Below, in pieces: positions 12,358 to 36,839 of a DNA stretch of 64,000 nucleotides (positions are counted from its first letter, which is position 1; the number at the start of each line of letters is the position of its first letter). Source of the DNA: Parapedobacter tibetensis (GTDB taxonomy: Bacteria; Bacteroidota; Bacteroidia; Sphingobacteriales; Sphingobacteriaceae). The notes under the pieces were generated by a model. It was not told where the DNA came from. It made no database searches and saw only the letters and a program-made list of their open reading frames with translations. The position numbers and the translations under genes are program-made. The stretch covers positions 186,001 through 250,000 of the forward strand of contig NZ_JAMXBE010000004.1 in the NCBI RefSeq assembly GCF_024704835.1. Reading direction: 5' to 3'.

Positions 12358-13680
12358 TCAGAAAATGAAATTCGTCCAACCAATCATCCAATCGCTATGC
12401 CTTTCCGGCAATGCCCCAATAGCGTCTGTGCCATCAAAGGCCAATGTAACCGGTGAATTGGGAGCATTGTACCAGGGTTGCCCCATCCCGAGTCTGGAAG
12501 CCTTTGCTGCCACGCTGAACGTGCTTCGTCTGCCCCAGTATTCACCTACCTGCCAAGTAATGGCATCCCTGAGTCCGTGCACAACTACGTCCGTCAGTGT
12601 GGAACCATCCGCATCCGTATTTTCATCGAATACCATACCTTTCGGGTATCCAGTAATGATGGAGTTCTCCAGTTTCAGTGCGGCACCGTTCCGCAGCGCA
12701 ATGCCGTGGCCCAAACCGGGATCCATGGTACCCAGCATCTCCGTGCCGATAACGGTGAAGTGCATCAGCACGGGGTGAGTCCTTGGCTCGGCATCATAGC
12801 GATCTGCATGGTTATCCAACTCGATACCGTGGGCGTCTGGAAGACCGGTCACGCTGTTCATCGAATGCCCGCTATTACAGTCGGCCACGGCCAGGGCATA
12901 GCGGATGGTGCCGCGGTAGCCGCTGTCAAAATCGAACTGGTCATCCCGCGAAGCAAGGGCCACTAAGTGCGAAGCATTGACCGTTCCTCCGAAAAACTCG
13001 AACCCGTCATCCAGCGCATAGGATACCTGGATGTGGTCGACAGTGGTACTCCTACCCACACCGCCCAAGGTCAGCGCATTCACTTCATTGTCGAGGGATT
13101 TATCAAAACCGGCATATTCAATTCGCACATACCGGATGACACCTCGGTCGTCGTTCTCATCGCGGCCGCCATAGCGGAAAGCCGGCTCATCGGGCAACCC
13201 TTCTACGGCCCGTTCGCCTCCGGGGTCGTTGATGGGTGCATTTCCAAGGATTACCAGGCCTCCAAAATCCCCCGACGAACCTACGGTATAGGGGTCACCA
13301 TCCAGCAGGTAACGACTGGTCATCACAATGGGTGCGTCGCCAGTGCCAATCGCATGGATGCGGCCGTCACGAGCAACCACCAGCACGCCTTTGGGTTCAC
13401 CGGGGGTTTGGATGGTCGATTTGATGTGAGTACCTGATTCGATGGTCAGCGTTGCACCCATCCGCACAGTAACCACCCCATCTATTTCCCAGACATGCGC
13501 CGCATCCCAGGTCATGTTGCCGGTAATATCTCCGCTTATCGTCACCACGGGCAGCGCCAATGCGGCATAATCGGGTGCCGCAGGGCTGTACGGATCGAGC
13601 GGAAATTGCTCAACTTCTTCGCAGGCCGCGAGCCAAAGCATGGCAAATGGGATTATGAACAGAATGGGATGTCGGGACAT
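12358..13680 (-). CDS. Asp-rich beta-helix-like lipoprotein, paralog 1 of 3
   Basis: A 440-residue exported lipoprotein (lipobox LAAC, Cys at about 20). The body has the parallel-beta-helix style of short Gly/Val/Asp-rich repeats: TLTIESGTHI, FGGLVILG, LTLGGVGRSTTVDHIQVSYALDDGFEFFGG, then DDQFDFDSGYRGTIRYALAV. The acidic DDxFDFD segment could hold Ca2+ (inference). Two paralogs follow upstream on the same strand; this one is the most divergent and lacks their Ser/Gly/Asn-rich insert and their C-terminal Cys pair. It is downstream of an ECF sigma/FecR/TonB-receptor module. Such proteins are often labelled hypothetical or, wrongly, multidrug transporter. Confidence 0.75.
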   Translation of the reverse strand: MSRHPILFIIPFAMLWLAACEEVEQFPLDPYSPAAPDYAALALPVVTISGDITGNMTWDAAHVWEIDGVVTVRMGATLTIESGTHIKSTIQTPGEPKGVLVVARDGRIHAIGTGDAPIVMTSRYLLDGDPYTVGSSGDFGGLVILGNAPINDPGGERAVEGLPDEPAFRYGGRDENDDRGVIRYVRIEYAGFDKSLDNEVNALTLGGVGRSTTVDHIQVSYALDDGFEFFGGTVNASHLVALASRDDQFDFDSGYRGTIRYALAVADCNSGHSMNSVTGLPDAHGIELDNHADRYDAEPRTHPVLMHFTVIGTEMLGTMDPGLGHGIALRNGAALKLENSIITGYPKGMVFDENTDADGSTLTDVVVHGLRDAITWQVGEYWGRRSTFSVAAKASRLGMGQPWYNAPNSPVTLAFDGTDAIGALPERHSDWMIGWTNFIF

Positions 13681-13836
13681 TTTATTGTTTATGATGACTT
13701 AGCTTCCTGCTCGATGTAGGTCAGCCAGTCTGGGGTCAATGCTTCTTCCGATGCGAATAAGATTTTGGACACGGTACTTCTTCTCAATTTGTTTTAAAGG
13801 AATCGTATAGGAGAATGAATTGATTATCGAAACTGA

Positions 13837-15303
13837 CTAGTTACAGCAGAACTCTGGATTGAAGTCCGTCCAGCCTGCTGTCCAGATGGTTCCGCCACTT
13901 GGCTGAAACGCACCTTTATAGGTTGTTGTTCCGTTTCCAAATGCAGGAGATCCTCCGTTACGAGGCAATAAATATGCTGGATTATAGGAAGCAGCGTTCG
14001 AACAGTTGTAGAAAGGCGTTCCACCAAGTGGGTGTCCCAATTGCAGATAATTATTAGCTGTACTCGTTCCCTGATTGATAATGTTTCCCACCCATGTTGA
14101 TGGAGGATTAGGTGGAGTTGGTGAAGCTGGGAGATGATCATCGGCAAACCCGAGAAGTACATTATTGCTGAATATGCTTCCAGTTGATGACGTACCTACG
14201 AAATCAGCACCAGTAGGAAATCCTCCAATAATTGAATATTGAATATCCAAAGAGGTACCCCTTCTCCAACGATTTCCTCTGAGCAGGTCACTTGAAGTGG
14301 TATTATACCCCAATAACGTGAAGTGGCGCAATGTTGGCCCCGTCAATGGAGTAGCTCCTGATCCAGAGCCATCATTGTCTGACTCGATACCATTGGAATC
14401 TGAGTTTCCACCACTGGTACTGTGAGTCGAATTGGGATCTTTCAGACCAATGGCGTAATCAATCGTTCCATTATAACCAAAGTCAAAATCGAAGTCGTCA
14501 TCACTCGTACCGATGGCTACCAAGTGATCGGCATTCACCGTGCCTCCGAAGAAGGCAAAAGCATCGGTCGAACTATAAGATACCTGAATGTGGGATAGTG
14601 TGGTACCCGAACCCACTCCTCCCAGTGTCAAACCACTTAGAACATTGGTTTCCGTTAACTTATCACCAGGAAATTCGATCCTGACATATTTAAGAATCCC
14701 TGAATTATCATTGTTAATATTGTTTGACACGCCACCGTATGTTATATCAGCTCCAGCCGGTTGTGCAATTCCATCAATTCGTACAGAAAAGGTTCTATTT
14801 GTAGAGGCCCTTCCGATGATGACAATACCCCCAAAACTTCCTGCTGTATTGCAAGAATTGCTTTTGCAGCCTACTCGCTGCGGAGTAGTAAATACAATAG
14901 GCTCATTAGGAGTTCCTTCGGCAATAAGTTTCGCCGTTCTGGGTACGACCAATACACCAGCCATATCTTGAGGACCATATAATGGATCGTCATAACGCTT
15001 AGTTGCCCCCGTTACCACTATAGTTCCGGGAGCGATAGTCAGCGTTTGTCCGGGACGAACATAAGAAATCCCGTCCAAAAGCCAATTATTGGTGTTTGAA
15101 AGCGAGCTTATCGTAATAAGACCATTCGCATCTACGGGGATAGGAACACAGGGCCGTCCATTGCTCAATGCGCCGGCTGTAGTTGACCGGTTGAAGTCTC
15201 CACTGTCATGGAGTTTATTCTTTTTACAACAGGTAAATCCAATTGTCGTGATAATTGCAAAACATGCTATTAATCCGATCCGTTTGAGAGTTTCTTTAAA
15301 CAT
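13837..15303 (-). CDS. Asp-rich beta-helix-like lipoprotein, paralog 2 of 3
   Basis: A 488-residue exported lipoprotein (lipobox GFTC, Cys about 25). Domains follow paralog 3 closely along the whole length: GRPCVPIPVDANGLITISSL, the beta-helix repeats, LTLGGVGSGTTLSHIQVSYS, the acidic SDDDFDFDFGY block, a Ser/Gly/Asn-rich insert (STHSTSGGNSDSNG), and the end DFNPEFCCN. Two Cys near residues 165-170 and the terminal CC could form disulfides. In the part encoding the insert it is identical in DNA to paralog 3 for 53 bp. Function unknown; a surface partner of the TonB receptor encoded upstream is the best guess. Confidence 0.77.
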   Translation of the reverse strand: MFKETLKRIGLIACFAIITTIGFTCCKKNKLHDSGDFNRSTTAGALSNGRPCVPIPVDANGLITISSLSNTNNWLLDGISYVRPGQTLTIAPGTIVVTGATKRYDDPLYGPQDMAGVLVVPRTAKLIAEGTPNEPIVFTTPQRVGCKSNSCNTAGSFGGIVIIGRASTNRTFSVRIDGIAQPAGADITYGGVSNNINNDNSGILKYVRIEFPGDKLTETNVLSGLTLGGVGSGTTLSHIQVSYSSTDAFAFFGGTVNADHLVAIGTSDDDFDFDFGYNGTIDYAIGLKDPNSTHSTSGGNSDSNGIESDNDGSGSGATPLTGPTLRHFTLLGYNTTSSDLLRGNRWRRGTSLDIQYSIIGGFPTGADFVGTSSTGSIFSNNVLLGFADDHLPASPTPPNPPSTWVGNIINQGTSTANNYLQLGHPLGGTPFYNCSNAASYNPAYLLPRNGGSPAFGNGTTTYKGAFQPSGGTIWTAGWTDFNPEFCCN

Positions 15304-15439
15304 AAGTTTTAATTTTAAAATTATTTATAAATATACTTCTGCATCATTTGTTCGTACAAACCATACCGTCGTCAGGATGAATAGGAGCCATGTATAATTC
15401 AATTTCTGTTACTTTATTATCATATATAGCAAGTGTCAA

Positions 15440-16270
15440 TTAATCGCTAAACAGAACCTTTGGCTCAATATCATAATACGTTCCTCCGTAAGCTAAATGC
15501 TCCTCAGACTCACCCCATTGTTCATAGGGAATTAGATACACGGTAAATACGGCTTTTTGTGCATTTGGATATTCAAATTCAGGAAAGAAAGCAAAACTTG
15601 ATATATACAGCCGTCCTCCGTGGTTTAGGACATCCATGCCTGTATTAGAATCCCTGAAGGCAAATAGAATACTTCCGGTGAAGTCACCACCAGTCGGTTT
15701 GGGAATCAACCGATACGATTCATCACCCAAGTTCCGTCCAACGTCTTCAAGCATTGCCAATTCTTCATATGACAACTCAAATGTCTCCAAATTGAATTTC
15801 TCACCCATTACAATGATATCGATTTTTTCAAAGGGCAATAGATCAAATGAATAATTGGCCAGCTTCATTTTGTAAAATCCTTCAGGTGCGGCCTCTTCAT
15901 CGGCTTGTTCATTGGGATCGAGAAATGCCACTGGGGCGTCGATTGTTGGTTGGAATACCAGAAAGGTTTCTGGATGGGATGCAATCACTTGTACCGTTTT
16001 CTCCCCCAAGACTTTGCCGGTCCTTTTATTATAAAACTCAAAGCTTGCTTCCCCTTCTGGAACCTTTACCATGCCTGTGCCTCCTTGCCAAGCTATTGGC
16101 TCCCCTTTATATTTTATACTCAAATCAGTATTCAATACACTTTGGTTCTGGAAATACACATTGCCAAATGTGACAAACCCATCTTCGTAGTTCTGTTTTT
16201 GACAGGAATAGAAACTAACGACGCAGCAAAGAATCCAGAAACCACCAAACATGTAAAATCTTTTTTTCAT
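15440..16270 (-). CDS. Lipoprotein of unknown function between two paralogs
   Basis: A 276-residue protein with a signal peptide and lipobox (SFYSC, Cys about 23). I do not recognise the family. It reads as a beta-rich protein: FGNVYFQNQSVLNTDLSIKY near the N-terminus, an Ig-like stretch (VKVPEGEASFEFYNKRTGK), and an acidic middle (DPNEQADEEAAPEGF). It lies within the minus-strand cluster between paralogs 2 and 3 and is probably exported to the same surface complex. DUF4397-like or carbohydrate-binding folds are possible but not shown. Confidence 0.7.
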   Translation of the reverse strand: MKKRFYMFGGFWILCCVVSFYSCQKQNYEDGFVTFGNVYFQNQSVLNTDLSIKYKGEPIAWQGGTGMVKVPEGEASFEFYNKRTGKVLGEKTVQVIASHPETFLVFQPTIDAPVAFLDPNEQADEEAAPEGFYKMKLANYSFDLLPFEKIDIIVMGEKFNLETFELSYEELAMLEDVGRNLGDESYRLIPKPTGGDFTGSILFAFRDSNTGMDVLNHGGRLYISSFAFFPEFEYPNAQKAVFTVYLIPYEQWGESEEHLAYGGTYYDIEPKVLFSD

Positions 16271-16368
16271 TTCTTTATTTCAGTTATTATATAACCAAGG
16301 TGGCCCATTGTGCCACCTTGGTCTATCATTTAAATTACATTACCAATGCACGTACATGCTTTTGTTTT

Positions 16369-17829
16369 TTAGTTACAGCAGAATTCTGGATTGAAATCCG
16401 TCCAGCCAGCTGTCCAAACAGGCTGACCTGGTTGGAATGCACCCTTATATGTCGTGGCGTTTCCGAATGCCGGGGAACTGCTTCTTGGTATCAATAAAGC
16501 TGGATTGTAGGATGCCGCAGTGGAACAAGAGTAGAATGGATTGCTTGCAGTTGTCGGCCCTAATTGCAAGAAATTATTTGCCAAAGTCACAGATTGGTTA
16601 TTTATATTCCCGAACAAAATTGAGGGCTTGGGCGTATTGATAACCTCGACAGAATCGGTATATCCGTGAACAACGTTGTTTACGAAAGTAGAAGGATTAG
16701 TGATGCCGGTAGTGCGGCCATACTCAATCCCCGTAGGGAATCCTGCAATAATTGATCTGGTCATATTCAATGATGTAGCCCTTCTCCATCGATTACCATC
16801 CTGAAGATCAGTCAAATTACTGTTATTGGCATATCCCAATAATGTAAAATTAACTAAGATAGGATTTGTCTTAGGGTTTGCTCCACTACCGGATCCATCA
16901 TTATCGGATTCTATACCATTGGAATCTGAGTTTCCACCACTGGTACTGTGAGTCGAATTGGGATCCTTTAAGCCCAGTGCATACTGAATGGTGCCGGTAT
17001 ATCCAAAGTCAAAATCAAAATCGTCATCGTCCGTACCGATGGCCACCAAGTGGTCGGCATTCACCGTGCCTCCGAAAAATTCAAAGGCGTCATCCGCACT
17101 GTAAGAAACCTGGATGTGTGACAATGTCGTACCAGATCCTACTCCTCCAAGGGTAAGACCGTTAATTTCATTCCCTTCAGCCAATCTGTACCCTGGATAT
17201 TCAATCCGTACATATTCAATAATTCCTGAATTATCGTTGTTAATGTTGTTGGCAGTACCACCGAAGGTGATGTCCGTGCCGGCTGGCTGAGGTATGCCTT
17301 CAATCCGGACTGGAGTTGTGCGATTAGTTGTAGCCCTTCCAAGGACTACGATTCCGCCGAACTGACCAGCAGTACTACATGTGCCCGAAGAACAACCTAC
17401 CCGTTGGGGCGTGGTGAAGACGATCGGATTTCCTGCGGTACCTTGTGCAATTAATCTAGCGGTCTTCGGTACCACCAATACGCCGGCCAACGTTTGCGGG
17501 CCAAACGCTGGATCATTATATGTCTTCGTCGCACCAGTGACAATGACCGTTCCGGGATCAATGGTCAGCGTTTGACCGGGTGCCACATAGGCAACACCAT
17601 CAAGCAACCAGTTGTTGGCATTCGAAAGACTGCTTACCGTAATGATGCCACTGGCATTCACGGGAATGGAAACACAAGGTCGGCCGTTATTCAGCGCCCC
17701 AGCAGTGGCAGATTGGTCGAAATTTCCCTCGCCAGAGTCAAATTTGTTTTTTTCGCAGCTTGTAAAGCTTACGCCCGTAATTGCGACGCTTGCCGCAATC
17801 AACATCGATTTAACAAAATTTAGTTTCAT
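16369..17829 (-). CDS. Asp-rich beta-helix-like lipoprotein, paralog 3 of 3
   Basis: A 486-residue exported lipoprotein (lipobox SFTSC, Cys about 25), first of the three paralogs after the TonB receptor. Clear landmarks: GRPCVSIPVNASGIITVSSL, RVGCSSGTCSTAG, EVNGLTLGG-type helix rung, VSYSADDAFEFFGG, the very acidic TDDDDFDFDFGYTG, the STHSTSGGNSDSNG insert and the terminal DFNPEFCCN. The gene starts about 100 bp after the receptor gene and is probably co-transcribed with it. The family role is not established; Ca2+ binding by the Asp block and cargo capture for the receptor are inferences. Confidence 0.77.
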   Translation of the reverse strand: MKLNFVKSMLIAASVAITGVSFTSCEKNKFDSGEGNFDQSATAGALNNGRPCVSIPVNASGIITVSSLSNANNWLLDGVAYVAPGQTLTIDPGTVIVTGATKTYNDPAFGPQTLAGVLVVPKTARLIAQGTAGNPIVFTTPQRVGCSSGTCSTAGQFGGIVVLGRATTNRTTPVRIEGIPQPAGTDITFGGTANNINNDNSGIIEYVRIEYPGYRLAEGNEINGLTLGGVGSGTTLSHIQVSYSADDAFEFFGGTVNADHLVAIGTDDDDFDFDFGYTGTIQYALGLKDPNSTHSTSGGNSDSNGIESDNDGSGSGANPKTNPILVNFTLLGYANNSNLTDLQDGNRWRRATSLNMTRSIIAGFPTGIEYGRTTGITNPSTFVNNVVHGYTDSVEVINTPKPSILFGNINNQSVTLANNFLQLGPTTASNPFYSCSTAASYNPALLIPRSSSPAFGNATTYKGAFQPGQPVWTAGWTDFNPEFCCN

Positions 17830-17928
17830 TGTTTTGATTTTTTAATTAATGAATCGTGTATGAAAAAAGCACATCGTGCCCTGGTAATGTTCATTCAATT
17901 CTTTTTTGTCGGTATTTTCATGATGGAG

Positions 17929-20900
17929 CTAAAAGTTATAGGTGAATGAAAGGGTTGCAGCCCTCCCTGTTTTGATTCGATAGGTCACCCGGTCACCGCT
18001 GTCTTTCTCAAAAGCAGTTGTGCCATTAACCAATCTCCAACCTAAAGCTGGGCCGGTTTCTGAATCCATGATTTCTTCGTACGCACTGATATTCTGATAA
18101 AACAAGATGTACTCATCCAGCAGGTTGCTCAGATTCAGCTTCAATTCCGCACGTTGCTTTAGCAACCGTGCGTTAACCTGGATATCCAGTAGATTACGTC
18201 CGTTTTCATATTCCACGCCTTGGGGTTGCAAATCTATGGTATTGCTTCGGTGGCCCGACCGGTTGTAGCTGGCCGTCAGGCCGATGATATTCCCCTGATA
18301 GGATAGTCCGGCATTGGCGATCCACGGGGCTTGTCCATAGAGCGGTCGGTCTAGGCTTGGTAGGCGTTCGGCCTCTATAAATTCTCCGGGCAAGGGTTGT
18401 GTCTGTACCTCTACCTTAGATTTGATCAACGTACCGTTGCCGAATATCACCAGGTTATGGAGCCATTGCTTATCCGCAATAAATCCCAGCGATTTGCGGA
18501 ACTCTACTTCCAGCCCGTAATTGACCGCCGCATGCTGGTTCTGGAAAATATATTGCCTAGCCCGTGCAAGGACTAATTCAATAGGATCATGCAGCTTCTT
18601 GTAAAACCCAGAAACTGAAACAATCTCCCCAGCAGTGGGATACCATTCATAGCGCAAATCCAAGTTTTCTACAATCGTGGAAATCAGCTGCTTGCCGGAA
18701 ATATTCGCGTCCAGTTCATAATCGTAGAAACCGAAGTAGGCCGTCTCCCGGAAATCAGGTCGGATGGCGGTCTTGCTATACGCGACTCGTACATTCATTT
18801 GGGAAGTTAAGCCGTACGTTACGTTGACCGATGGCAGCACACGCCAGTTCTTTTCGCCGGTTGTGCTGAACAGCGTGAAATGATCGGGAATCTCTCCGAA
18901 TCGGTTGATGATATACTGTTCCTGCCGGTTACCCAGGTTGTAATGCTCCATGCGAATGCCATACACCAATCGCAGCTTCTGAAAGAAGCGCTGGTCCAGC
19001 ATGGCGTATGCAGCATGGGTTTCCATCGTGCCATCAAAGGCGGGGCCGTTCAGCATTTCTGCATAATAGTAGGCTAAGCCTTCTCCAACGCCAATATTAT
19101 CCGGATCAAGTAAGACATGATAGGGTTGTTCAAAGGAGTGAAAGCTTCCATATAGCCCATAAGGAATCATGCGGTTCACACCAAGGGTGCGATGTTTATG
19201 CCAACCGTTGTATCCCACTTTGGCGGTATTGCGTACGCTATGACCAAGATCAAAATCTCGGCTAAGCGCTACACCCCAATTGTAATCGGTTTCCTTGACT
19301 TGGGTCCACATCCGGTAGTCATAATCATTATCCACACGACTGGGGTTATAGATATTCGGTGTCTGGAAATACTCCACCCCGCCTACGTCAGCGGTCTTCC
19401 AATAACGGAGCCTGCGTTGATCCAGCACCTGCTGCCCGATGCGCGTCATCCCACCGGAATAGGCCAACCTGATACCTGTACTACCTAACAGGTTCTCGCC
19501 TTCCAGTTTGTGCTGCCAAACTTCGGTTGTCTGCGGCTCCTGGAACATCTCCCGGTATTTGTTGAGGTTATCTCCACCAAGGTTCAGGCGATAAGCCTCA
19601 TTGAAATTATCGTCAAAAATACGGGAATACATATTCTTCAATGCTAGTTTAAAACTTTCACCCTGCAAGCCAAGGTTCAATACAGCGCCCACCGTACTAT
19701 TGAAGCGGTAGGAACGGCCGCTGCCATTCTCCAAACTATCCATATAATTGCTTGCTATCGCGCTTCCGGCGCCACCTTGCCCCCTCACATTATTGAAATC
19801 GGCAATGTTCTGTTGGTTACGGTAGGTCGCCCCACCGGCAAAACCGGCCCGTAGACCATTTTTCAGGTCATAGATGCGACCGAGGGCAAAACGCATGTTC
19901 TGGTGCGGGAACGCCTGGTAATTGTTAACCGATAAACCTTCGGCATTCAGCCGTTTGCTTTGAGCAATCGCATCGAGACTACTGTAAGGCGCGTCACTGC
20001 CGGGCCGAAGGGGAAAATCATTGCCGGGTTCGCCTGGGGGCGGTATATCTACGCCACTCGGAAATCGCCATGGAATAAGGTTGGCCGGCTCCTTACGCTG
20101 CCCATCGTCAAACCCAAGATAATCCCAGCCCCTCCGTTCGCCCAGCATCAGGAAATCCTTTCCCGTGCTCCGACTATTATAACCTGTACCAATCGTGATG
20201 CTAGTGAAATTTTCTTCCGGGATATCCAGCGTATTCACCGATATCTGCCCGCCGCTGAACTCGGCAGACATATCTGGCGTAGCCGTCTTATTGACCACCA
20301 CATTGCTTACCAGTTCCTGTGGCAGCACGTCAAAGGAAAAATTCCGGCGGTTCATGTTCGTACTGGGCAATACCACGCCATCGATCATGGCTTGGTTGTA
20401 ACGTTCTGTCAATCCGCGTACCACCACATACTTGTTGTCTACGGTGGTTACCCCGCTCACACGCCTCAAAACCTGCCCCATGTTGTTGTCGGGGGTGCGG
20501 CTAATCTGCTCCGCGGAAATCCCATCGGTGATGGAAGCGGCGTTTTTCTGCTGGGCATACAGGCCCTCGATGGAAGCCCGCTGGTAGCTGGCGGTTACGC
20601 TCACTTCGCCCAGGGCGGCGCTGGCCGGTTGCAGGGACACGTCCAATGGGGTCTGCGCCCCTTCGCGCACTACCACATCGGTGATGCGCTTGGTCTGGAA
20701 GCCAAGGAAGGAGACTTCTATGGTATACGTGCCGGGATCCAACGGGAAATTGAAGCCTCCATCTACACTGCTTTGGAGAGAACGGTTGGGCTCCACGACT
20801 TTCACCGTAGCCCCAGCCAGCGGTTCGCCACGCTCATCCACCACCTTGCCAGACACGCGTCCGGGCTGTTGTTCTCTGAATAACAGTACGGTCCTGGTGT

Positions 20901-21243
20901 CAACAATCTGGTAGCCAACCTGCGTATTCCGAAGCAATCTTTTGAGTATCTGCGTAAACTTCATGCCTTGCTCGGCATGAACGCTGACTCGCCGGTTTCG
21001 GTCGAATAACATCCGGTTGTAATTGATCGAGATACCAGCGCGTTCTCCCAGATCACTTAAGGCTTCCTCAATGGTCACTTCGCGGACACTCATGACCACC
21101 GGTGTCATGTTTACATGTTGTTCAAGGGGTTTAGAAAGGGTGTCGTTAGCCAATAACAGGATTACCAAAGGCATTAACATAAGTTTCCTTAGTTTTAGAT
21201 TGGAATAAAATTTGTTTCTTTGTATAAAGATTCCTATATCCAT
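17929..21243 (-). CDS. TonB-dependent receptor with STN and carboxypeptidase-like domains
   Basis: An 1104-residue outer-membrane receptor. Order: signal region with a hydrophobic segment (LMLMPLVILLLA), STN domain (about 50-115, the part that signals to FecR), CarboxypepD_reg domain (about 128-205), plug (about 225-345, with RRVSGVTTVDNKYVVVRGL), then a 22-strand-type barrel ending in TLSFTYNF with terminal Phe. The start at 21243 is chosen because it gives a plausible signal; the open frame runs 41 codons further upstream. STN plus the adjacent FecR and ECF sigma genes mark it as a transducing, self-regulated receptor. The cargo is unknown; the three linked lipoproteins suggest a dedicated surface system. 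Confidence 0.92.
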   Translation of the reverse strand: MDIGIFIQRNKFYSNLKLRKLMLMPLVILLLANDTLSKPLEQHVNMTPVVMSVREVTIEEALSDLGERAGISINYNRMLFDRNRRVSVHAEQGMKFTQILKRLLRNTQVGYQIVDTRTVLLFREQQPGRVSGKVVDERGEPLAGATVKVVEPNRSLQSSVDGGFNFPLDPGTYTIEVSFLGFQTKRITDVVVREGAQTPLDVSLQPASAALGEVSVTASYQRASIEGLYAQQKNAASITDGISAEQISRTPDNNMGQVLRRVSGVTTVDNKYVVVRGLTERYNQAMIDGVVLPSTNMNRRNFSFDVLPQELVSNVVVNKTATPDMSAEFSGGQISVNTLDIPEENFTSITIGTGYNSRSTGKDFLMLGERRGWDYLGFDDGQRKEPANLIPWRFPSGVDIPPPGEPGNDFPLRPGSDAPYSSLDAIAQSKRLNAEGLSVNNYQAFPHQNMRFALGRIYDLKNGLRAGFAGGATYRNQQNIADFNNVRGQGGAGSAIASNYMDSLENGSGRSYRFNSTVGAVLNLGLQGESFKLALKNMYSRIFDDNFNEAYRLNLGGDNLNKYREMFQEPQTTEVWQHKLEGENLLGSTGIRLAYSGGMTRIGQQVLDQRRLRYWKTADVGGVEYFQTPNIYNPSRVDNDYDYRMWTQVKETDYNWGVALSRDFDLGHSVRNTAKVGYNGWHKHRTLGVNRMIPYGLYGSFHSFEQPYHVLLDPDNIGVGEGLAYYYAEMLNGPAFDGTMETHAAYAMLDQRFFQKLRLVYGIRMEHYNLGNRQEQYIINRFGEIPDHFTLFSTTGEKNWRVLPSVNVTYGLTSQMNVRVAYSKTAIRPDFRETAYFGFYDYELDANISGKQLISTIVENLDLRYEWYPTAGEIVSVSGFYKKLHDPIELVLARARQYIFQNQHAAVNYGLEVEFRKSLGFIADKQWLHNLVIFGNGTLIKSKVEVQTQPLPGEFIEAERLPSLDRPLYGQAPWIANAGLSYQGNIIGLTASYNRSGHRSNTIDLQPQGVEYENGRNLLDIQVNARLLKQRAELKLNLSNLLDEYILFYQNISAYEEIMDSETGPALGWRLVNGTTAFEKDSGDRVTYRIKTGRAATLSFTYNF

Positions 21244-21404
21244 AGGGATGAAGTGTTTTTTAATGTTTACAGCGTTAAAAACTATTGTTGGAAAGCCGTT
21301 CTGTTGGCGCAGAGCGGTTTTCTTTTTTCTAAATTTATTTCTTATCGAGACGAGTGCATGCTCCACCCGGATCCGATTCGTTGTTAGACATGTAGTAGCT
21401 TATG

Positions 21405-22439
21405 TCATCGGCATACCCCCCCCCACAAGGTGATTTTATCATTGTCCCCGGATACCCGGTAGTGCAGTTTTCCGCCGCTCATGATCTGCAGTTCGTCCAT
21501 CACCTCCTTGATGCTCTTCTTGTCAAACGTTGCATTGAACGGGCAATCGAGACCGGGATCTCCCTGCCACATGAACTGTATATTGTAGTACCGTTCTAAC
21601 TTCCTAAGGATGTTTTCCATCGGTTCATCCCGGAACACGAAACGGTTATGGGCCCAGCTATCCGCGTCTTCGGTGCGCTCCTTGTTCACGGCATAAGTAC
21701 CGTGGTCACGCTGATAGGTCAGTTCCATGCCGCTGGTCAGCACAGACAGCTGCCTTGTGCTGTCCTTGCTGAGTTCCGAAACTTCCACTTTTCCCGACTT
21801 GACCAGGACACTGGACTGGTTATCGGATGGATAGGAATAAACATTGAACGATGTCCCCAGCACGCGGGTCTGCAAGTTACCGGACCGAACGGTGAATGGC
21901 CGCAAGGTATCCCGTTTGACCTCAAAAAATGCTTCACCCTCCAGGAAAATATTCCGGTACGGCCCTTCCGCAAACTGATTCGGCCAGCTCAGGGTGCTTC
22001 CACCGCCTAAGTAAACGATGCTGCTATCCGGCAACACGACCTTTTTCTTTTCGCCCGGAAGGGTGGATTTGGTGACCAGTTGTACTAGCTTTTCGGTCTT
22101 GGACTCCTGCTGACCCAACTGGTAACTATACCAGCTCAATCCCACCGTAACAAACAATAGGGCTACGGCGGCATATTTCAGTAACCCATATCGGCGTTTG
22201 CGTACCGGCTCGCTATGCCCAATCCTGTCCCAAAGCTTATCCAGGCCTTGGGCTGCCCTGTTACCCTCAAGACGTGGCGCCGGCTCCTTCACCCATTGCT
22301 CATTAGCCAGTTCATCCAGCTCTTTTTCCGATAGGGTCCCGGCATGCAAGTGCCGGAACAGGAGTTTCTCCTGTAAGGGATTCGTGCGCCCCGCTAGGTA
22401 GAGTCTGAATAATCGCTTGATATCTTCCTTGCTTTCCAC
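21405..22439 (-). CDS. FecR-family anti-sigma factor
   Basis: A 344-residue one-span membrane regulator. The cytoplasmic N-terminus (about 1-82) reads DIKRLFRLYLAGRTNPLQEKLL; the membrane helix is about 85-105; the FecR domain with LPDSSIVYLGGGSTLSWP and EGEAFFEVKRDTLRPFTVRSG is about 125-225; and a DUF4974-type C-terminal domain (ERYYNIQFMW) follows. It would relay receptor status to the sigma factor encoded upstream. A run of nine G residues lies four codons before the stop, so a length change would alter the last residues. Confidence 0.95.
   Translation of the reverse strand: MESKEDIKRLFRLYLAGRTNPLQEKLLFRHLHAGTLSEKELDELANEQWVKEPAPRLEGNRAAQGLDKLWDRIGHSEPVRKRRYGLLKYAAVALLFVTVGLSWYSYQLGQQESKTEKLVQLVTKSTLPGEKKKVVLPDSSIVYLGGGSTLSWPNQFAEGPYRNIFLEGEAFFEVKRDTLRPFTVRSGNLQTRVLGTSFNVYSYPSDNQSSVLVKSGKVEVSELSKDSTRQLSVLTSGMELTYQRDHGTYAVNKERTEDADSWAHNRFVFRDEPMENILRKLERYYNIQFMWQGDPGLDCPFNATFDKKSIKEVMDELQIMSGGKLHYRVSGDNDKITLWGGVCR
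21416..21424 (-). repeat. G9 homopolymer near the 3' end of fecR
   Basis: Nine C on the plus strand, nine G in the coding strand. With nine the protein ends LWGGVCR; with eight or ten it would end in GMPMT at a stop about 10 bp further on. Confidence 0.9.
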
Positions 22440-22604
22440 GTTCGTTGTTATTTCCGGTTACCTAATGGGTACCCTTTATAACTATTGATCCACAAAACGC
22501 ATAGGTGGGTAGGTGACGGAGGTTACTTTTTCCTAAATGAATTATAACTTACTGGATGTCAATACGTAAAATTTTCGGAAAGATAAGGTGGCAAATGGCG
22601 GCTG

Positions 22605-23216
22605 CTAAATCAAACCCGAAAAAGAAAAAAAGCAGATAACCGACAACAGGGTATCGGGGGAATGGATTTCGAAATAGGTCCGTATCTGTTTGAGGGCGGT
22701 CTTGATGTGATACTTGACCGTATTTTGGGAGATATGGAGCTGACGCGAAATGGCATCACAGGACAGGCCCTTGTCTCGGCTCAGCAGGAAAACCGTTTTT
22801 GACTGCGGCGGAAGGGTTTCAATGGCCTCTTGGGCAAGCCGATGGGATTCCATGTAATCCAGACGTTCGGATACGGCATTTGAAATAGGCGCATGGGCCA
22901 GCTCATAAATGGGCGTTGCATTGGAACTGACCTCAAGCGACTTTTTTCGTAAGGCCTTCAACGCAATGTTTCGGCTGATGGTATTTAGAAAAGCATCGGC
23001 ATTGCGGATATCCCCTACTTTTGAACGGTTAGCCCAGAGATGGATAAAGACATCCTGGGCAAGGTCTTCCGCTTCATCGTCACAATGGACAAAACGCCGG
23101 ACAAAGTTCATCACCTTCACGACATACCGGAGGTAAATCTCATTAAAGGCTTCCCTATTGCCTGAACTGATCCCAGTTAACAATTCCTCCCCCGAATGAT
23201 TGGCAAACTTTTCCAT
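22605..23216 (-). CDS. ECF sigma factor (FecI-type) for the TonB-receptor module
   Basis: A 203-residue ECF sigma factor. Region 2 (about 22-90) includes NEIYLRYVVKVMNFVRRFV and DLAQDVFIHLW; region 4 (about 130-185) includes LPPQSKTVFLLSRDKGLSCDAISRQLHISQNTVKYHIKTAL. The C-terminal tail after about 188 is hydrophobic (LLSVICFFSFSG). Gene order sigma, fecR, receptor on one strand is the standard surface-signalling layout, so it most likely drives the receptor and the lipoprotein genes. Confidence 0.95.
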   Translation of the reverse strand: MEKFANHSGEELLTGISSGNREAFNEIYLRYVVKVMNFVRRFVHCDDEAEDLAQDVFIHLWANRSKVGDIRNADAFLNTISRNIALKALRKKSLEVSSNATPIYELAHAPISNAVSERLDYMESHRLAQEAIETLPPQSKTVFLLSRDKGLSCDAISRQLHISQNTVKYHIKTALKQIRTYFEIHSPDTLLSVICFFSFSGLI

Positions 23217-23402
23217 CAGTATAAGTTGTTTTTAAGTGGCAATGAAGCTTGCATGAGCAATTTGTTTATATCCATTTTTGAGTGGTAGCTCATGCAGGTT
23301 CCATCTCGCAATTGGTTAGTGCTTTCAAACGTTGTGCAAGATAGGGAGGTTATTTAAAGTTAATGTTAAATCTGGAATACGGTTTAAACCCAGCAATCTA
23401 AA

Positions 23403-24749
23403 TCATCGGACAAGGGGCACACCGGACTGTTTGTCGACCGCTATCCGTGTGTCCAAAATAATCTTGGGCGCAGTGGAAGCAGGCTGGGCGTAACGTTGGG
23501 ATTGGGCATTGGTGCCGGATAGCTGAGATAAGGCGGCTGCGACCAGCGGATCGGACTCGGCTCCCAAAGGGCGGAGCGGAAGTATCGACAATTCGTTGAC
23601 ACCGATATCGGGGGCAAGGCCTTCGGGATAATCACCGATTCCCTGTGCATTATATAGCTTGTAGACCAGTGGATGGAGGATCCAGCCGTCCGCAGGTGAG
23701 GGTTGCTGATGGTCCCGGATCACGAAAGCGGCCATGTCCTTGCCATGCGTCTGTTCCCCAATCCGGATGACGTCCATATAAGGTGCCAGGTTATTCACCA
23801 GCAGCTCCGCTGCTGAAAGGGTATGCCGGCCGGTTAAGAAGAAGACACGCGATAGGTTTAGTCGGCGGATTGCTAACCCTGACACGTTATGGTTGATGAA
23901 GGACAACTCCGCATCGAAGTTATTACGCTTGACCCCGGCATTCGTGTTGCCCCGGTATTCCGCAAAGATGTCCGCTCCATTGACCGGAGCTAGCAAAGCG
24001 GCAACCAATGCCGCCACAGGTACGTCACCTCCGGGATTGTAGCGTAGGTCGATGATGAGTTCGGAGACTCCGTGACTCCTGAAATAGTCAAATGCTTCCA
24101 TTACCGGCGAAAGGCGTCCCGAATCGAATCGATTCAGGAAAAGGTAACCCGTTTTCATACCTGTGCCCACCAAGTTGAACACATGCACGGGATTTTCGTT
24201 TATATGTGTCGCGACCAGGCTGATGGGCTCATCCATCCCGTCGATTTCCAGTTCCGCAATCCCATTGGCTATGCATCCATTGACCAAATCCGCGACGTTC
24301 CCTGCATCGGGTCTGATCGCATTGACTGTAACCACCCGTTGACCCCGTTTCAACCCACTGCGTGCTGCCATTGAGTTGGGTACAACCAGCGAGATGTAAA
24401 GCGCTAAATTCTGCCCGCTTTCTACGGCTACCAGATCGAGGCCGAAGTTTCCGGTCATGGTTTGCTGGTAAGTATCCGGCCGGGATGGATGGACCAACTC
24501 CGAGAAGCGGTCATCCCGATATCGGATGTCAGCAAAGAAATCTACCGGAGCCTTCCAACGTGCCGGATTTTTGGGCAGGTTACGGTTCCAGTAATAATAG
24601 ACCGCCATGCTGTCCAGCACCCAGTCATTGATTGCTTCATTACTACCGGGAGGATAGGACGGATCGGGTGCATCCTTCCTGCAGGCCCCAAGCAAAGCCA
24701 GAACGGCAAACAGGAATAACCCGTGAAAATAAAATCTAGATCTACACAT
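23403..24749 (-). CDS. S41 (C-terminal-processing-type) peptidase lipoprotein
   Basis: A 448-residue exported lipoprotein (lipobox LLGAC, Cys about 23). An N-terminal helical part carries NEAINDWVLDSMAVYYYWN, common in Bacteroidota S41 peptidases. A PDZ region follows (SMAARSGLKRGQRVVTVNAI), then the catalytic domain with LIIDLRYNPGG, the nucleophile Ser in TLSAAELL and the Lys in QTHGKDMA about 25 residues later. It is transcribed in the same direction, about 190 bp upstream of the sigma gene. Processing of FecR or of surface lipoproteins is possible but only inferred from position. Confidence 0.88.
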   Translation of the reverse strand: MCRSRFYFHGLFLFAVLALLGACRKDAPDPSYPPGSNEAINDWVLDSMAVYYYWNRNLPKNPARWKAPVDFFADIRYRDDRFSELVHPSRPDTYQQTMTGNFGLDLVAVESGQNLALYISLVVPNSMAARSGLKRGQRVVTVNAIRPDAGNVADLVNGCIANGIAELEIDGMDEPISLVATHINENPVHVFNLVGTGMKTGYLFLNRFDSGRLSPVMEAFDYFRSHGVSELIIDLRYNPGGDVPVAALVAALLAPVNGADIFAEYRGNTNAGVKRNNFDAELSFINHNVSGLAIRRLNLSRVFFLTGRHTLSAAELLVNNLAPYMDVIRIGEQTHGKDMAAFVIRDHQQPSPADGWILHPLVYKLYNAQGIGDYPEGLAPDIGVNELSILPLRPLGAESDPLVAAALSQLSGTNAQSQRYAQPASTAPKIILDTRIAVDKQSGVPLVR

Positions 24750-24825
24750 AACGGTCGCTTGTCGGATAGCAACAAAGATAACGGGTCAAGATGTAGTTAT
24801 TGTTAAATTTGGGTCGGGGACTAAA

Positions 24826-24895
24826 AAGGCTGACCTACTTATTTATGTAGATCAGCCTTGTCGCATGATGCGCCTTAATGTTATGATAACATTAA
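24826..24895. repeat. Two inverted repeats upstream of the S41 gene
   Basis: First: arms 24826-24838 and 24847-24859, 13 bp with one mismatch. Second: perfect 10-bp arms 24875-24884 and 24886-24895 around one base (TTAATGTTAT). They lie in the 361-bp gap 24750-25110, between divergent promoters, and may be operators or leftover terminators. The rest of the gap is AT-rich with no gene I can see. Confidence 0.6.
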
Positions 24896-25078
24896 TTAAA
24901 AAATCGGGGCAAAGGTAACACAAAAAATTGTTTACCTCAAAACGTTGTTGTTTATTTCACAGTCTTTTCTAACTTGTTCTTAACGGCTTTCCCCAGCACT
25001 TTGAATAATATATATTTAAATTATATATTAAGAAAACATTAAATTCCAATAACTTATCCGGGGTGGAAAGATTATACC

Positions 25079-32495: not shown

Positions 32496-33647
32496 CTACT
32501 TTAATACTTCCCTAGCGATCACCAGTTTCTGGATTTCGGAAGTTCCTTCCCCGATGGTGCATAATTTAGAATCCCGATAATATTTTTCAACTGGGAAATC
32601 CTTGGTATAGCCATAGCCTCCGAAAATCTGCACGGCTTCTGTAGCACATCGTACTGAAACTTCTGAAGCGTAATATTTGGCCATTGCTGAGTTTTTGGTC
32701 ACATCCTTCCCGAGGTTCTTCAATTCGCAAGCTTGTCTTATCAGCAACTCTGCCGCCTCAATCTCCGTAGCCATGTCTGCCAATTTGAACGATATGCCCT
32801 GGAAACTGGCTATCGGCTGTCCAAATTGATGACGTTCCTTTGCATACTTCGTAGCAGCTTCAAATGCCCCTTTGGCAATACCCAAAGCCAACGCAGCAAT
32901 AGAAATACGTCCGCCATCCAATACCTTCATCGCTTGCTTGAACCCTTCTCCCTCCTCACCAAGCAGATTTTCCTTAGGCACCCGGCAATTATCAAAGACC
33001 AGTTCCGTAGTCTCCGATGCACGCATACCAAGCTTGTTTTCCTTCTTGCCATGTGTAAATCCGGGCGTACCTTTTTCGATGACCAAGGTAGACACCCCAA
33101 GGGAGCGGTTCTTCTCGCCTGTGCGCACCATGACTACCGCTATGTCTCCACTTTTTCCGTGGGTAATCCAGTTCTTTGATCCATTCACCACATATTCATC
33201 CCCATCCAACACGGCCGTGGTGCCCATACCCAACGCATCTGACCCTGTATTGGCCTCCGTAAGTGCCCACGCTCCAATCCAATCTGCGGTGGCCAACTTA
33301 GGTAGCCAACGTTGTTTTTGCGTTTCATTCCCAAACGTGAGGATATGCCCCGTGCATAACGAATTGTGAGCAGCCAATGAAAGGCCTACTGAACCACATA
33401 CCTTGGCTACCTCTACAATGATGTCTACATATTCATGGTAACCCAAACCCGCCCCACCGTATACCTCTGGCACAAGCACCCCCATGATACCCAATTGCCC
33501 CATGGCTTTGAACGTATCCACAGGGAAAATCTGCGCTTCATCCCACTCCATCACATATGGCCGTATATGTTTGTCCGCAAATTCGCGTACCATGTTACGT
33601 ACCATCCGCCGATTTTCATCGCCCATCATTTCCGATTGTATTTGCAT
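32496..33647 (-). CDS. Acyl-CoA dehydrogenase
   Basis: A 383-residue FAD enzyme that desaturates acyl-CoA at C2-C3. Seen: ALTEANTGSDALGM (signature 1), KNWITHGKSGD, RVPKENLLGEEGEGF, RHQFGQPIASFQ, and signature 2 with the catalytic Glu in YRDSKLCTIGEGTSEIQ (GEGTSE). The position of the Glu fits short/medium-chain enzymes. The start at 33647 (MQIQSEMMGDENRRMV) is chosen over a longer frame whose N-terminal 51 codons read as low-complexity hydrophobic sequence. Confidence 0.95.
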   Translation of the reverse strand: MQIQSEMMGDENRRMVRNMVREFADKHIRPYVMEWDEAQIFPVDTFKAMGQLGIMGVLVPEVYGGAGLGYHEYVDIIVEVAKVCGSVGLSLAAHNSLCTGHILTFGNETQKQRWLPKLATADWIGAWALTEANTGSDALGMGTTAVLDGDEYVVNGSKNWITHGKSGDIAVVMVRTGEKNRSLGVSTLVIEKGTPGFTHGKKENKLGMRASETTELVFDNCRVPKENLLGEEGEGFKQAMKVLDGGRISIAALALGIAKGAFEAATKYAKERHQFGQPIASFQGISFKLADMATEIEAAELLIRQACELKNLGKDVTKNSAMAKYYASEVSVRCATEAVQIFGGYGYTKDFPVEKYYRDSKLCTIGEGTSEIQKLVIAREVLK

Positions 33648-33840
33648 AATAATAATTGGTGTTTGCGCAATTATAATCAATATGGAAGGAAATGCAAACC
33701 AAAAAAAATATTGTGTAATATAGAATAAATTGGTATTTGGTATGAAATCTATATAATCAAATGGTATTGCCGCTATATCGCAAGCCCGTGTCGACTCCAA
33801 AAAAGATAAAAAATTAATGATCGCAGATATTCATAAAGCG

Positions 33841-33848
33841 TATCTTTG
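33841..33848 (+). promoter_or_regulatory. -7 element TATCTTTG upstream of the DUF6263 gene
   Basis: TATCTTTG fits TAnnTTTG, 32 nt before the ATG at 33881. No clear -33 box is seen. Confidence 0.5.
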
Positions 33849-33880
33849 GGCAAGCATTTGATAATCTTAAAATAAAAACA

Positions 33881-34816
33881 ATGAAGTACTCCATGACGAC
33901 AGGGTTACTGTCTCTTTTATTTCTTATCCATGGCACCGCATCGGCTGATGAACCGGCATTAAAAAATGATAACCCGCTAAGCCGCCAAAAGGAAGTATTA
34001 TTGAAGTTTAATCTCCAGCCAGGAGATAAATATCATTTTTCATCTGTTACGAAACAAAATATTGTGCAGGAGGCTATGGGCCAACAGATGACCACCACCC
34101 AGGATATCGTGGCTGACTATATATATGACATCCAAGCTGTCCAAAATGGCATGACTACCATCAACGTGACCTTCGGAAGCATCAAAATGGATATGGATGT
34201 TGCAGGTATGCAAAAGCTCACGTATGATTCGGATAATCCAGATGGGGGAACCGAGGAATTGAAGGCGATGTCAAACATGGTTGGCAAATCATTCTTGATG
34301 GAAATCAATGAAGAAGGAAGTGTTGAAAAGATAGAAGGACTTGCCGAAATCATCAGCTCCATTGGTGGACAACAGGCTGAATTGCTGAAGCAGAGTTTTG
34401 GAGATTCCTCCATGATACAAAACATGAACCAAGTAACCAACATCTACCCCAATAAGAAAGTAAGGGTTGGTGATAAATGGATGAAGAAATTCTCCGGCCC
34501 GGTAGCGGGTATCATGCAATCGGAGGCCACCTCTGATTTTTCATTATCAGATATAGAAGGCGATTTGGCGATATTGGAAATGAACGGGGAAATGGATTTT
34601 TCCAAATTGGAGGGGGGCGGTGGCAACCCGATGCTACAGGGTGCGGAATTCAAACTGAAGGGTACACAAACGGGAACCTTGGAAGTGGATATCAAATCGG
34701 GATTACCGCTGCAAACCAAACTAAAGCAAGCGATATCTGGGAACCTCGAAGTACAGGGGATGCAAATTCCGATGACTATCACCTCGGATATTACCATCAC
34801 GGGTAAAAAGCTGTAA
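33881..34816 (+). CDS. Exported DUF6263-type protein
   Basis: A 311-residue protein with a signal peptide (MKYSMTTGLLSLLFLIHGTASA). The mature part is beta-rich: LLKFNLQPGDKYHFSSVTKQ, a central Gly/Met-poor stretch, IYPNKKVRVGDKWMKKFSG, then TGTLEVDIKSGLPLQTKL and the end TSDITITGKKL, as in DUF6263. Periplasmic or surface location; function unknown. A bidirectional terminator separates it from apt. Confidence 0.78.
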   Translation: MKYSMTTGLLSLLFLIHGTASADEPALKNDNPLSRQKEVLLKFNLQPGDKYHFSSVTKQNIVQEAMGQQMTTTQDIVADYIYDIQAVQNGMTTINVTFGSIKMDMDVAGMQKLTYDSDNPDGGTEELKAMSNMVGKSFLMEINEEGSVEKIEGLAEIISSIGGQQAELLKQSFGDSSMIQNMNQVTNIYPNKKVRVGDKWMKKFSGPVAGIMQSEATSDFSLSDIEGDLAILEMNGEMDFSKLEGGGGNPMLQGAEFKLKGTQTGTLEVDIKSGLPLQTKLKQAISGNLEVQGMQIPMTITSDITITGKKL

Positions 34817-34833
34817 ATTCAATTACCAGCGCC

Positions 34834-34873
34834 AAAACGCCACGGTACTGTTTAGTTACCCGTGGCGTTTTTT
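34834..34873. terminator. Bidirectional terminator between DUF6263 gene and apt
   Basis: ACGCCACGG and CCGTGGCGT arms with a loop of about 14 nt, A run on the left and T run on the right, so it can end both convergent transcripts. Confidence 0.85.
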
Positions 34874-34879
34874 ATTTGA

Positions 34880-35407
34880 TCAATACCCCACCAACGAAAC
34901 CACGTTTGGGCTATATGACAACAACCGCTCTTTGCCATTGAGGAAATCAAGGGTGATGATAAAGGCATATCCAGCCACGCTCCCACCCAGTTTTTGGATC
35001 AATTGGCTAGTAGCAGCCACCGTACCCCCCGTAGCCAGCAGGTCGTCATGAATAAGCACCCGTGCGCCCGGCATGAAGGCATCTTCATGGATTTCAATGG
35101 TAGCACTTCCATATTCAAGCTTATATTCTTGCTGCATTGCTGAGTAAGGCAGTTTGCCTTGCTTTCGAATAGGAACGAATGGTTTGCCCAAGCGTTGGGC
35201 AAGCATTAACCCAAACAAAAAGCCCCTGCTTTCTATCCCAGCTATTACATCAAAGGAGTCGACAGCCAATCGCATAATTAAATTGGTCAATATGGCTTCG
35301 CATAGTTTTGGGTCTTTAAGAATTGGCGTGATGTCTTTGAAAACAATGCCTGGTTTAGGGAAATCGGGCACGTCCCGTATGGTGGCTTTAAGCTGCTCGT
35401 CAATCAT
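34880..35407 (-). CDS. apt: Adenine phosphoribosyltransferase
   Basis: A 175-residue purine-salvage enzyme making AMP from adenine and PRPP. Seen: IRDVPDFPKPGIVFKDITPIL at the N-terminus, IAGIESRGFLFG, and the PRPP motif VLIHDDLLATGGT. Length and motifs are standard. Its start overlaps the end of the ComEA-like gene by 8 bp, so translation is probably coupled. Confidence 0.97.
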   Translation of the reverse strand: MIDEQLKATIRDVPDFPKPGIVFKDITPILKDPKLCEAILTNLIMRLAVDSFDVIAGIESRGFLFGLMLAQRLGKPFVPIRKQGKLPYSAMQQEYKLEYGSATIEIHEDAFMPGARVLIHDDLLATGGTVAATSQLIQKLGGSVAGYAFIITLDFLNGKERLLSYSPNVVSLVGY

Positions 35408-36368: not shown

Positions 36369-36425
36369 ACACCATCCTCGAGGTTTTGGAGACCTAAGAT
36401 AGCAAATTTTGGTGATTTTTATTTA

Positions 36426-36462: not shown

Positions 36463-36477
36463 CTTTTTAGGGAGCGC

Positions 36478-36825: not shown

Positions 36826-36829
36826 GTTT

Positions 36830-36837: not shown

Positions 36838-36839
36838 TT

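Follow-up and report, generated by a model that had tools for sequence, protein, structure and literature searches.

A block of eight co-directional genes in Parapedobacter tibetensis (RefSeq assembly GCF_024704835.1) is, in our judgement, probably a phosphate-starvation-induced, ligand-sensing surface scavenging operon for phosphorylated compounds, of the type described as PUSIII in Flavobacterium johnsoniae. The block lies on the minus strand between positions 12,358 and 24,749 of the window, by which we mean the whole stretch of 64,000 nucleotides analysed (positions 186,001 to 250,000 of contig NZ_JAMXBE010000004.1). It encodes, in reading order, an S41 peptidase (from 24749), an extracytoplasmic function (ECF) sigma factor, a FecR-type regulator, a TonB-dependent receptor (TBDR), the beta-helix lipoprotein P3, a lipoprotein of a divergent family (U), and the beta-helix lipoproteins P2 and P1 (to 12358). 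By layout, its kinship appears to be with PUSIII and, more distantly, with ElpS of Caulobacter crescentus.

The block would belong to a widespread, little-studied kind that relatives switch on at low phosphate, and is probably explained for the most part by what has been published on that kind. Low-phosphate induction and surface or exoprotein location are carried over from papers on relatives, while induction in P. tibetensis is predicted from the promoter evidence presented here. A profile of the beta-helix family matches 252 of 395 sampled Bacteroidota genomes, and 53 of the 61 from the window's own family. The members scanned match no model (three of three for Pfam, five of five for NCBIfam), though a published relative is the most abundant F. 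johnsoniae exoprotein in phosphate hunger (PMC8115612).

Architecture of the Gene Block

The first-pass annotation, made from the letters alone, had located every named open reading frame (ORF) correctly, all on one strand, and its naming of the sigma factor, FecR, receptor and S41 peptidase is confirmed by Pfam. Against its description of the block as compact, 186 bp separate S41 from sigma, and both genes have a promoter-like stretch of their own. The first gene (23403..24749) encodes a C-terminal-processing-type peptidase with PF03572 (Peptidase_S41), Pept_S41_N and a lipobox-like signal; against the NCBIfam GFO_1087 S41 equivalog it scores 243.1 bits and does not reach the cut-off of 455. 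The ECF sigma factor (22605..23216) carries Sigma70_r2/r4 and passes TIGR02985 (130.8 bits, cut-off 126.4), and the FecR-type anti-sigma regulator (21405..22439) has PF04773 (FecR) and PF16344 (FecR_C). The receptor (17929..21366, start probably an internal ATG near 21243) matches Plug, TonB barrel and CarboxypepD. Its STN signalling domain (20869..21114, residues 85-166 of the long ORF) scores 20.5 bits, under the Pfam cut-off of 28.4; nonetheless, this stretch matches the N-termini of other receptors. The block accordingly contains the ECF sigma, FecR and STN-receptor set of FecI/FecR/FecA-type cell-surface signalling.

P3 (16369..17829), U (15440..16270), P2 (13837..15303) and P1 (12358..13680) complete the block, and none of these four matched a Pfam or NCBIfam model even at E 0.1. 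No SusD model was matched by any of the eight proteins in either database, and the receptor reaches 63 bits against the SusC model TIGR04056, whose cut-off is 368. A SusCD polysaccharide-utilisation reading was therefore dropped, and the earlier statement that this is no standard glycan-utilisation locus stands. The receptor also scores below the cut-off of the TonB-Xanth-Caul model (213 bits, cut-off 310). Scans for sigma70-type promoters and terminators across the block yielded no more than shuffled sequences did.

P1, P2 and P3 are paralogs, with 69% identity between P2 and P3 and 40-41% between P1 and either of them. As had been noted from the sequence, all three share an acidic block (FEFFGGTVN...DDxFDFDxGY...GIExDN, with its DDDFDFD stretch), a lipobox-like N-terminus and a beta-helix character. 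In a 68-row alignment, the acidic residues D246, D247, E250, D268, D269, D272, E307 and D309 (P3 numbering) are at least 90% conserved. The model of P3 is a beta-helix of 486 aa (mean predicted local distance difference test score, pLDDT, 87.8), taken to be right-handed from its fold matches. A gene for a pectin-lyase-fold lipoprotein beside a TBDR, as seen in the window, is a feature of the family that comprises ElpS and the F-I, F-II and F-III lipoproteins, and we class P3 with them. Foldseek returned 284 matches at E <= 10 and none at E <= 0.001, while the top VIA-align match is the alginate epimerase/lyase 8ja4 (Z 22.9, root-mean-square deviation 3.4, 274 aligned, 12% identity). Because tailspikes and epimerases tie with 8ja4, the fold of P3 is clear but its enzyme class is not. 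A sequence search of solved structures with P3 gave six matches, the best at E 0.22 and none convincing.

Relatives and Locus Classes

Relatives were taken as the best 80 of 270 loci from one scan, to which our own ORF calling and clustering were applied. They hold 89 beta-helix proteins with a length of 300 aa or more, and for 76 of them a same-strand receptor lies at most three genes upstream. Among the other 13, five (L023, L075, L076, L082, L083) follow a different beta-barrel protein, a small outer-membrane barrel, instead of a TonB receptor; the receptor lies downstream in L026 and L081 and four genes upstream in L033, and none was seen for five genes (the second copy of L011, L041, L055, L078, L080). 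A second sample of 40 further regions, hand-chosen and non-random, gave 30 of 43 beta-helix genes with a same-strand receptor within three genes; judged by a crude lipobox pattern, lipoproteins seem to make up 22 of the 30 versus 2 of the 13 others. The surface complex next to the receptor that the first-pass annotation proposed gains support from these counts, paralogs elsewhere being mainly receptor-linked. Among three plasmid hits opened, two alphaproteobacterial ones read beta-helix, TBDR, type II secretion system (T2SS), and one from Pseudoalteromonas has beta-helix then TBDR, with no T2SS in view. Beta-helix proteins of family f4 (L088-L090, L093-L095, L098-L100, L105) are orphans lacking a recognisable lipobox and a receptor nearby; in L090, L094 and L100 the gene precedes three genes (~140, ~490 and ~1340-1640 aa), much the same set being seen in L105.

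Loci with sigma or FecR upstream were called class A and sigma-less ones class B. Class A receptors (~1050-1130 aa) form one clade of 27 rows, namely 25 class members, the window and L011 (support 98, FastTree), and class B receptors are mostly ~930-950 aa. In the beta-helix tree, class A falls nearly but not wholly together, the second copies of L044 and L048 lying elsewhere; receptor and beta-helix trees group similarly. The accompanying genes divide along the same line: an S41 gene occurs within eight genes in 22 of 25 class A loci versus none of 44 class B loci, and a U-family lipoprotein within three genes in 23 of 25 versus 2 of 44, these two (L011 and L013) both grouping with class A in trees. 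Three hand-chosen loci (L087, L092, L103) have the order sigma, FecR, TBDR, beta-helix, type IX secretion system (T9SS) protein, lipoprotein, S41, with sigma divergent in L092 and L103; their receptors share a 26-row set with the window's (support 99, FastTree).

Class B keeps other company. In L091, L096 and L097 the neighbours are a kinase, a PhoB-like regulator and an OprP-type porin, the last recognised by profile in L091, and no sigma, FecR, S41 or U is in view. The L053 regulator scores above the cut-off of the Bacteroidetes PhoB equivalog (342.7 vs 270), that of L091 falls under both PhoB cut-offs (203.9 vs 270; 215.1 vs 296.2), and no PhoR cut-off is reached by the protein chosen to represent the kinase cluster. 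The regulator ('RR') cluster mixes PhoB with other regulators, and an early label 'OprP27' for another cluster was dropped, Pfam showing a weak generic barrel. Elsewhere in the window, 32496-37724 (minus strand) carries genes of clusters 23, 24, 29, 40 and 57, which also flank sigma-less beta-helix loci in Pedobacter relatives in a different order, possibly a chance neighbourhood.

A Phased Pho-Type Promoter

A de novo search of 50 class B receptor upstreams (380 bp each) found the direct repeat TAACAT with a period of 11 in 21 of them, against 0.1 expected; at periods 9, 10 and 12 no word reached more than five upstreams. The resulting box is a TTAACATT repeat with an 11-bp period, phased to a TAnnTTTG element, which we take to be the Bacteroidota -7 consensus. 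In 25 strong class B boxes, the distance from box to -7 was 72 (n = 7), 50 (5), 28 (3) or 39 (1), with two other values once each and some boxes lacking a -7; the recurrence of 28, 50 and 72 indicates that the box array is phased to the promoter. Class A sigma promoters, read with a looser -7, gave spacings of 28 (6), 39 (3), 50 (3) and 20 (3).

A matrix built from the class B repeats (AGTTAACATTnnGnTAACATTGGn) was applied with the unphased 95% level of 1090 control upstreams, 13.45 bits, as threshold, class A being taken for these counts as any locus with FecR and a beta-helix gene. In class B, 51 of 74 receptors (training set included), 8 of 10 PhoU_div genes, 5 of 9 genes of the Porin_O_P cluster and 10 of 26 regulators exceeded it; in class A, the sites concentrate before sigma (12/40) and FecR (12/39), with 1 of 27 S41, 0 of 50 receptor, 1 of 42 beta-helix and 0 of 23 U genes. 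Some PhoU_div genes share their intergenic stretch with a receptor or porin, and some divergent sigma/FecR pairs share one stretch. A stricter test fixed the spacing at +28 with a -7 of TAnnTT(TG or GC) and at least 5 bits. It was passed by 21 of 74 class B receptors and by 4 of 1090 controls, and these four look like phosphate-gene neighbours (a metallophosphoesterase-like ORF, two ORFs inside Pit/PhoU loci and one transporter-like ORF).

Across the whole 64 kb of the window, phase-correct sites stand only before S41 and before sigma. The putative S41 promoter (24773..24808, minus strand; box ATTTAACAATAACTACATCTTGAC, -7 TATCTTTG, phase +28) scores 10.9 bits, the best phase-correct match, and the putative sigma promoter (23336..23371, minus strand; ATTTAACATTAACTTTAAATAACC with TATCTTGC, phase +28) scores 8.5 bits, the second and last. 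If every other spacing between 0 and 60 is allowed, with a minimum of 8 bits, one unrelated site is gained. In the whole genome, the phased consensus has two perfect matches: one lies 16 bp before a phoU-like gene adjoining pitA- and phoR-like genes, and the other 4 bp ahead of the sigma gene, counted from its longest ORF start, in a second sigma-FecR-receptor-U locus (L140, described below). With up to two mismatches there are 21 matches versus 9 for a reversed control, so the weaker ones count for little. In Riemerella anatipestifer, DNA affinity purification sequencing (DAP-seq) of PhoP found TTTAACA as the most conserved nucleotides, and a TonB receptor promoter was among the targets tested by electrophoretic mobility shift assay (PMC9603813). 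No published Bacteroidota Pho box of this form was found in the literature searched, of which excerpts were covered, and this is no proof of novelty. With the phased promoter, those receptors, lipoproteins and sigma factors that may take part in the phosphate response could be picked out by a simple test on sequence.

The best unphased match in the window, at 24873-24897 (16.1 bits, also a strict-pattern match), is no longer counted as a Pho box of the operon because it is a hairpin-capable palindrome that precedes a terminator-like hairpin. In 24821-24917 (minus strand), ahead of the S41 promoter, a TACCTTTG element (24917) is followed by the hairpin of this palindrome and then by the terminator-like one, which measures 13 bp and continues from its 3' arm into a U tract; the fold (-29.3 kcal/mol, z -6.7) has no Rfam match and is a candidate small RNA of ~85 nt or a leader. 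The arms of the palindrome are identical to those of an unphased box, TTAATGTT-n5-AACATTAA, that lies at a contig end of the same genome (L085:9163-12883, contig C6) upstream of a fourth beta-helix paralog, itself followed by a distant TonB receptor. Another ECF-sigma-like gene of this genome (L151, C85:203402) has a one-mismatch phased Pho-type site 11 bp upstream, a hint that relays from PhoB to an ECF sigma may be more general.

A Chimeric Receptor

The receptor is, on the evidence of its sequence affinities, a natural chimera of two lineages. For the window's sigma, FecR, STN and P1, the best matches in the set of 80 loci are L005-L010 (type 1), with wide margins for FecR_C (256-212 bits vs 111 for the next) and STN (54-34 vs 15). 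Plug, barrel, P2, P3, U and S41 instead match L012/L014/L017/L018/L022/L024/L032/L039/L064 best (type 2; barrel 712 bits), and the CarboxypepD stretch has mixed affinity. Separate trees place the barrel within type 2 (support 99) and STN closest to type 1, the latter from 81 columns and without starred support. In FecA-type signalling, STN, FecR and sigma are parts that need mutual contact. From the best matches and separate trees, such parts therefore seem to have moved together. The signalling half of one system (sigma, FecR, STN, P1) may have been joined to the half of a second system that serves transport (barrel, U, P2, P3), a suggestion we advance tentatively and jointly with the two-key switch discussed below. 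Through the chimera, the matching of receptor, FecR and sigma could be tested directly.

U as Receptor Partner and a Second Locus

U proteins are highly divergent, and profile-profile comparison joins many of their groups (U16-U25 at 97.5% over 228 columns; U16-U31 at 96% over 233). Several other group pairs are joined weakly, and none is joined to the unrelated c117 of L044/L048. The lipoprotein of L087/L092/L103 joins U16 (95% over 168 columns), not U15 or U25. The U model is beta-rich and of low confidence (pLDDT 67.5), its structural matches are scattered, and a sequence search of solved structures with U gave none.

The second locus in the same genome (L140:7125-13198, contig C2) encodes sigma, FecR, a receptor and one U. 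Its receptor is 52% identical to the window's over 140-1145 with no match to the window STN at E 1e-5, and its FecR is less similar to the window's (143 bits). No beta-helix or S41 gene was seen in the 19 kb read there, and the layout is repeated in a same-genus genome (L141). Because these two loci keep U in the absence of beta-helix and S41 genes, it seems to be U, rather than a beta-helix protein, that accompanies the receptor almost constantly, and P1-P3 and their kin would form an accessory capture layer. In another same-genus region (L142:7512-10329), two U genes stand beside a truncated receptor ORF, apparently a decayed copy of the system.

Proposed Mechanism

When phosphate runs short, PhoB would bind the phased TTAACATT boxes and switch on the S41 gene and the sigma-FecR-receptor-lipoprotein genes. 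At the cell surface, P1-P3 would capture a phosphorus-containing molecule through their conserved acidic residues, with U presumably sitting with the receptor. The receptor would import this ligand with TonB energy and signal through STN to FecR, releasing sigma, and the freed sigma would boost transcription only with ligand present, an AND gate of starvation and ligand. The S41 peptidase may process a partner at the surface or in the periplasm, for which trimming of FecR and release of lipoproteins are two possibilities. A precedent for PhoB joined to an ECF sigma/anti-sigma surface module is VreAIR (PMC4971064).

A more specific and more speculative version, which we consider possible yet doubtful as a whole, is a two-key switch in which PhoB drives an ECF sigma/FecR pair whose receptor must also see a phosphorylated ligand. 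U would here be a new kind of non-SusD partner, the acidic beta-helix lipoproteins a metal-bridged capture array for a phosphorylated polymer, and the whole modular, with halves of two systems grafted together in this genome.

Alternative Explanations

The beta-helix fold invites a reading in which P1-P3, together with a lipoprotein partner that is not SusD, are polysaccharide-lyase-like enzymes or binders supplying the receptor with oligosaccharides from uronate, pectin or alginate. The best matches of the P3 model include the alginate epimerase/lyase and mannuronan epimerases (together Z 22.9-22.2), PL6 lyases and polygalacturonases, the receptor resembles TonB-Xanth-Caul below the cut-off, and the F. 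johnsoniae authors also suggested plant cell-wall targets (PMC8115612). The fold is however generic, the 50 listed P3 matches being 8-16% identical and including tailspikes, adhesins and NosD; Pfam found no carbohydrate enzyme among the eight block proteins (the flanks were not scanned), and relatives are under phosphate control. We regard glycan scavenging as unlikely, although a phosphate-bearing glycan as cargo would merge it with phosphate scavenging. Slightly less probable again is an ElpS-like accessory role, in which the lipoproteins, instead of feeding the receptor, would present or activate a phosphatase outside the cell and be shed through proteolysis, perhaps by S41. Cleavage sets ElpS free, and overproducing it raises supernatant phosphatase activity (PMC2996285); S41 also travels with class A loci. 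Against this role, a joint complex is suggested by the linkage of 76 of 89 beta-helix genes to a receptor and by the like grouping of the two trees, and the eight proteins include no phosphatase.

RagA-type peptide importers are known in the phylum, and the S41 gene within the block could suggest protein acquisition with S41 as digestive protease. S41 is however the sole peptidase among the eight proteins and of the processing type, and the putative promoters are of phosphate type; we reject this reading as hardly credible. The sigma/FecR/STN-receptor architecture is of the classical iron-citrate type, which would fit uptake of iron or a metal chelate. This reading, only a little less improbable than the peptide one and likewise rejected, faces the same putative phosphate-type promoters and the listing of the PUSIII receptor among the F. 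johnsoniae systems induced under phosphate (Pi) depletion only (PMC8115612). Among the cargoes suggested in the first-pass annotation, the phosphate ester fits the PUSIII/PUSIV and ElpS layouts and the Pho-type promoters, while the metal chelate and the peptide have little in their favour; the cargo, then called not evident, is less opaque than thought given the kinship of layout with PUSIII and ElpS, and the earlier interpretation is in part upheld.

Phosphate scavenging by a PUSIII-type operon is thus preferred, but several observations weigh against it. Pfam found no phosphatase, phytase or phosphodiesterase among the eight proteins, and the fold of P3 is that of polysaccharide lyases and epimerases (fold-level Z 22.9 at 12% identity, with no family-level Pfam match). 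Clusters of PitA, PhoU_div, Porin_O_P, Ppk, GDPD or PhoR-like kinase accompany 14 of 44 class B versus 1 of 25 class A loci (a comparison with no random control). High scores of class B receptor promoters are not independent because the matrix was trained on them. Pass rates at phase +28 are low in class A (2/27 S41, 4/40 sigma, 0/39 FecR), and none of the 10 PhoU_div or 9 OprP/porin genes of class B passes, other phases accounting for part. The window's boxes are modest against the control level of 13.45 bits and lie more than two mismatches from the phased consensus, outside the 21 genome matches; the -7 variant TTGC was admitted post hoc, after the window and L005-L008 had been seen, and with TTTG alone only the S41 site remains. 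The DAP-seq motif gives independent wet-lab support for the box but is not phosphate-specific, since it has 583 targets and resembles the E. coli ArcA motif (PMC9603813). In Caulobacter, deletion of elpS leaves phosphatase activity unchanged and the neighbouring receptor gene is on in both media (PMC2996285). The link to FI and ElpS is drawn from layout and the papers' statements. Finally, the T9SS protein and Ppk of PUSIII are absent from the window's eight genes; the class A loci listed likewise lack the Ppk cluster (T9SS domains were not searched there), and we file the window as a PUSIII variant because these two were not taken as defining. The chimeric receptor and the promoter signature make the phosphate reading directly testable.

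Comparison with Known Systems

The FecIRA ferric citrate system shares the window's signalling from STN receptor to FecR to ECF sigma, for an iron cargo and without such a lipoprotein set. VreAIR (PUMA3) of Pseudomonas aeruginosa is similarly a PhoB-dependent ECF sigma/anti-sigma surface-signalling module, in which however VreA is receptor-like and virulence functions are controlled (PMC4971064). ElpS (CC0170) is made in phosphate starvation, exposed at the surface and later released; its gene, like P3, adjoins a TBDR (CC0171), a layout matched by the two alphaproteobacterial plasmids, but it also adjoins a type II secretion system, and the receptor gene is on in rich and poor media (PMC2996285).

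In F. johnsoniae, four low-phosphate gene clusters are described, and FI-FIII are 31-36% identical to the Caulobacter low-Pi lipoprotein (PMC8115612). PUSIV (Fjoh_0541-0549; OprP, PhoR, PhoB, TBDT, F-II; TBDT, TonB-dependent transporter) resembles the window in a receptor followed by a lipoprotein of this type, and differs in lying beside phoB-phoR-oprP, the class B layout of L091, L096 and L097 (PMC8115612). PUSIII comprises sigma (Fjoh_3859), a FecR-like protein (3858), a TBDT (3857), the F-I lipoprotein (3856), two T9SS-domain proteins (3855 and 3854, the latter a lipoprotein), S41 (3853) and a Ppk-like protein (3851). Its genes show fold changes of 7.80-14.47 in low Pi (log2 by the usage of the text), FI being the highest and the most abundant exoprotein; P-responsive loci such as PUSIII are termed tightly repressed under N and Fe limitation, and the PUSIII TBDT stands in a table of three TBDTs and two SusCD complexes for which Pi depletion is described as the sole inducing condition (PMC8115612). 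Colony expansion is unaffected by absence of Fjoh_3856 or Fjoh_0546 (PMC7807042). The window differs from PUSIII in having S41 at the head instead of the tail, three beta-helix paralogs of two lineages and a chimeric receptor, and shares with it sigma, a FecR-like protein, a TBDT, an F-form lipoprotein, a further lipoprotein and S41 in one cluster, which is the class A layout.

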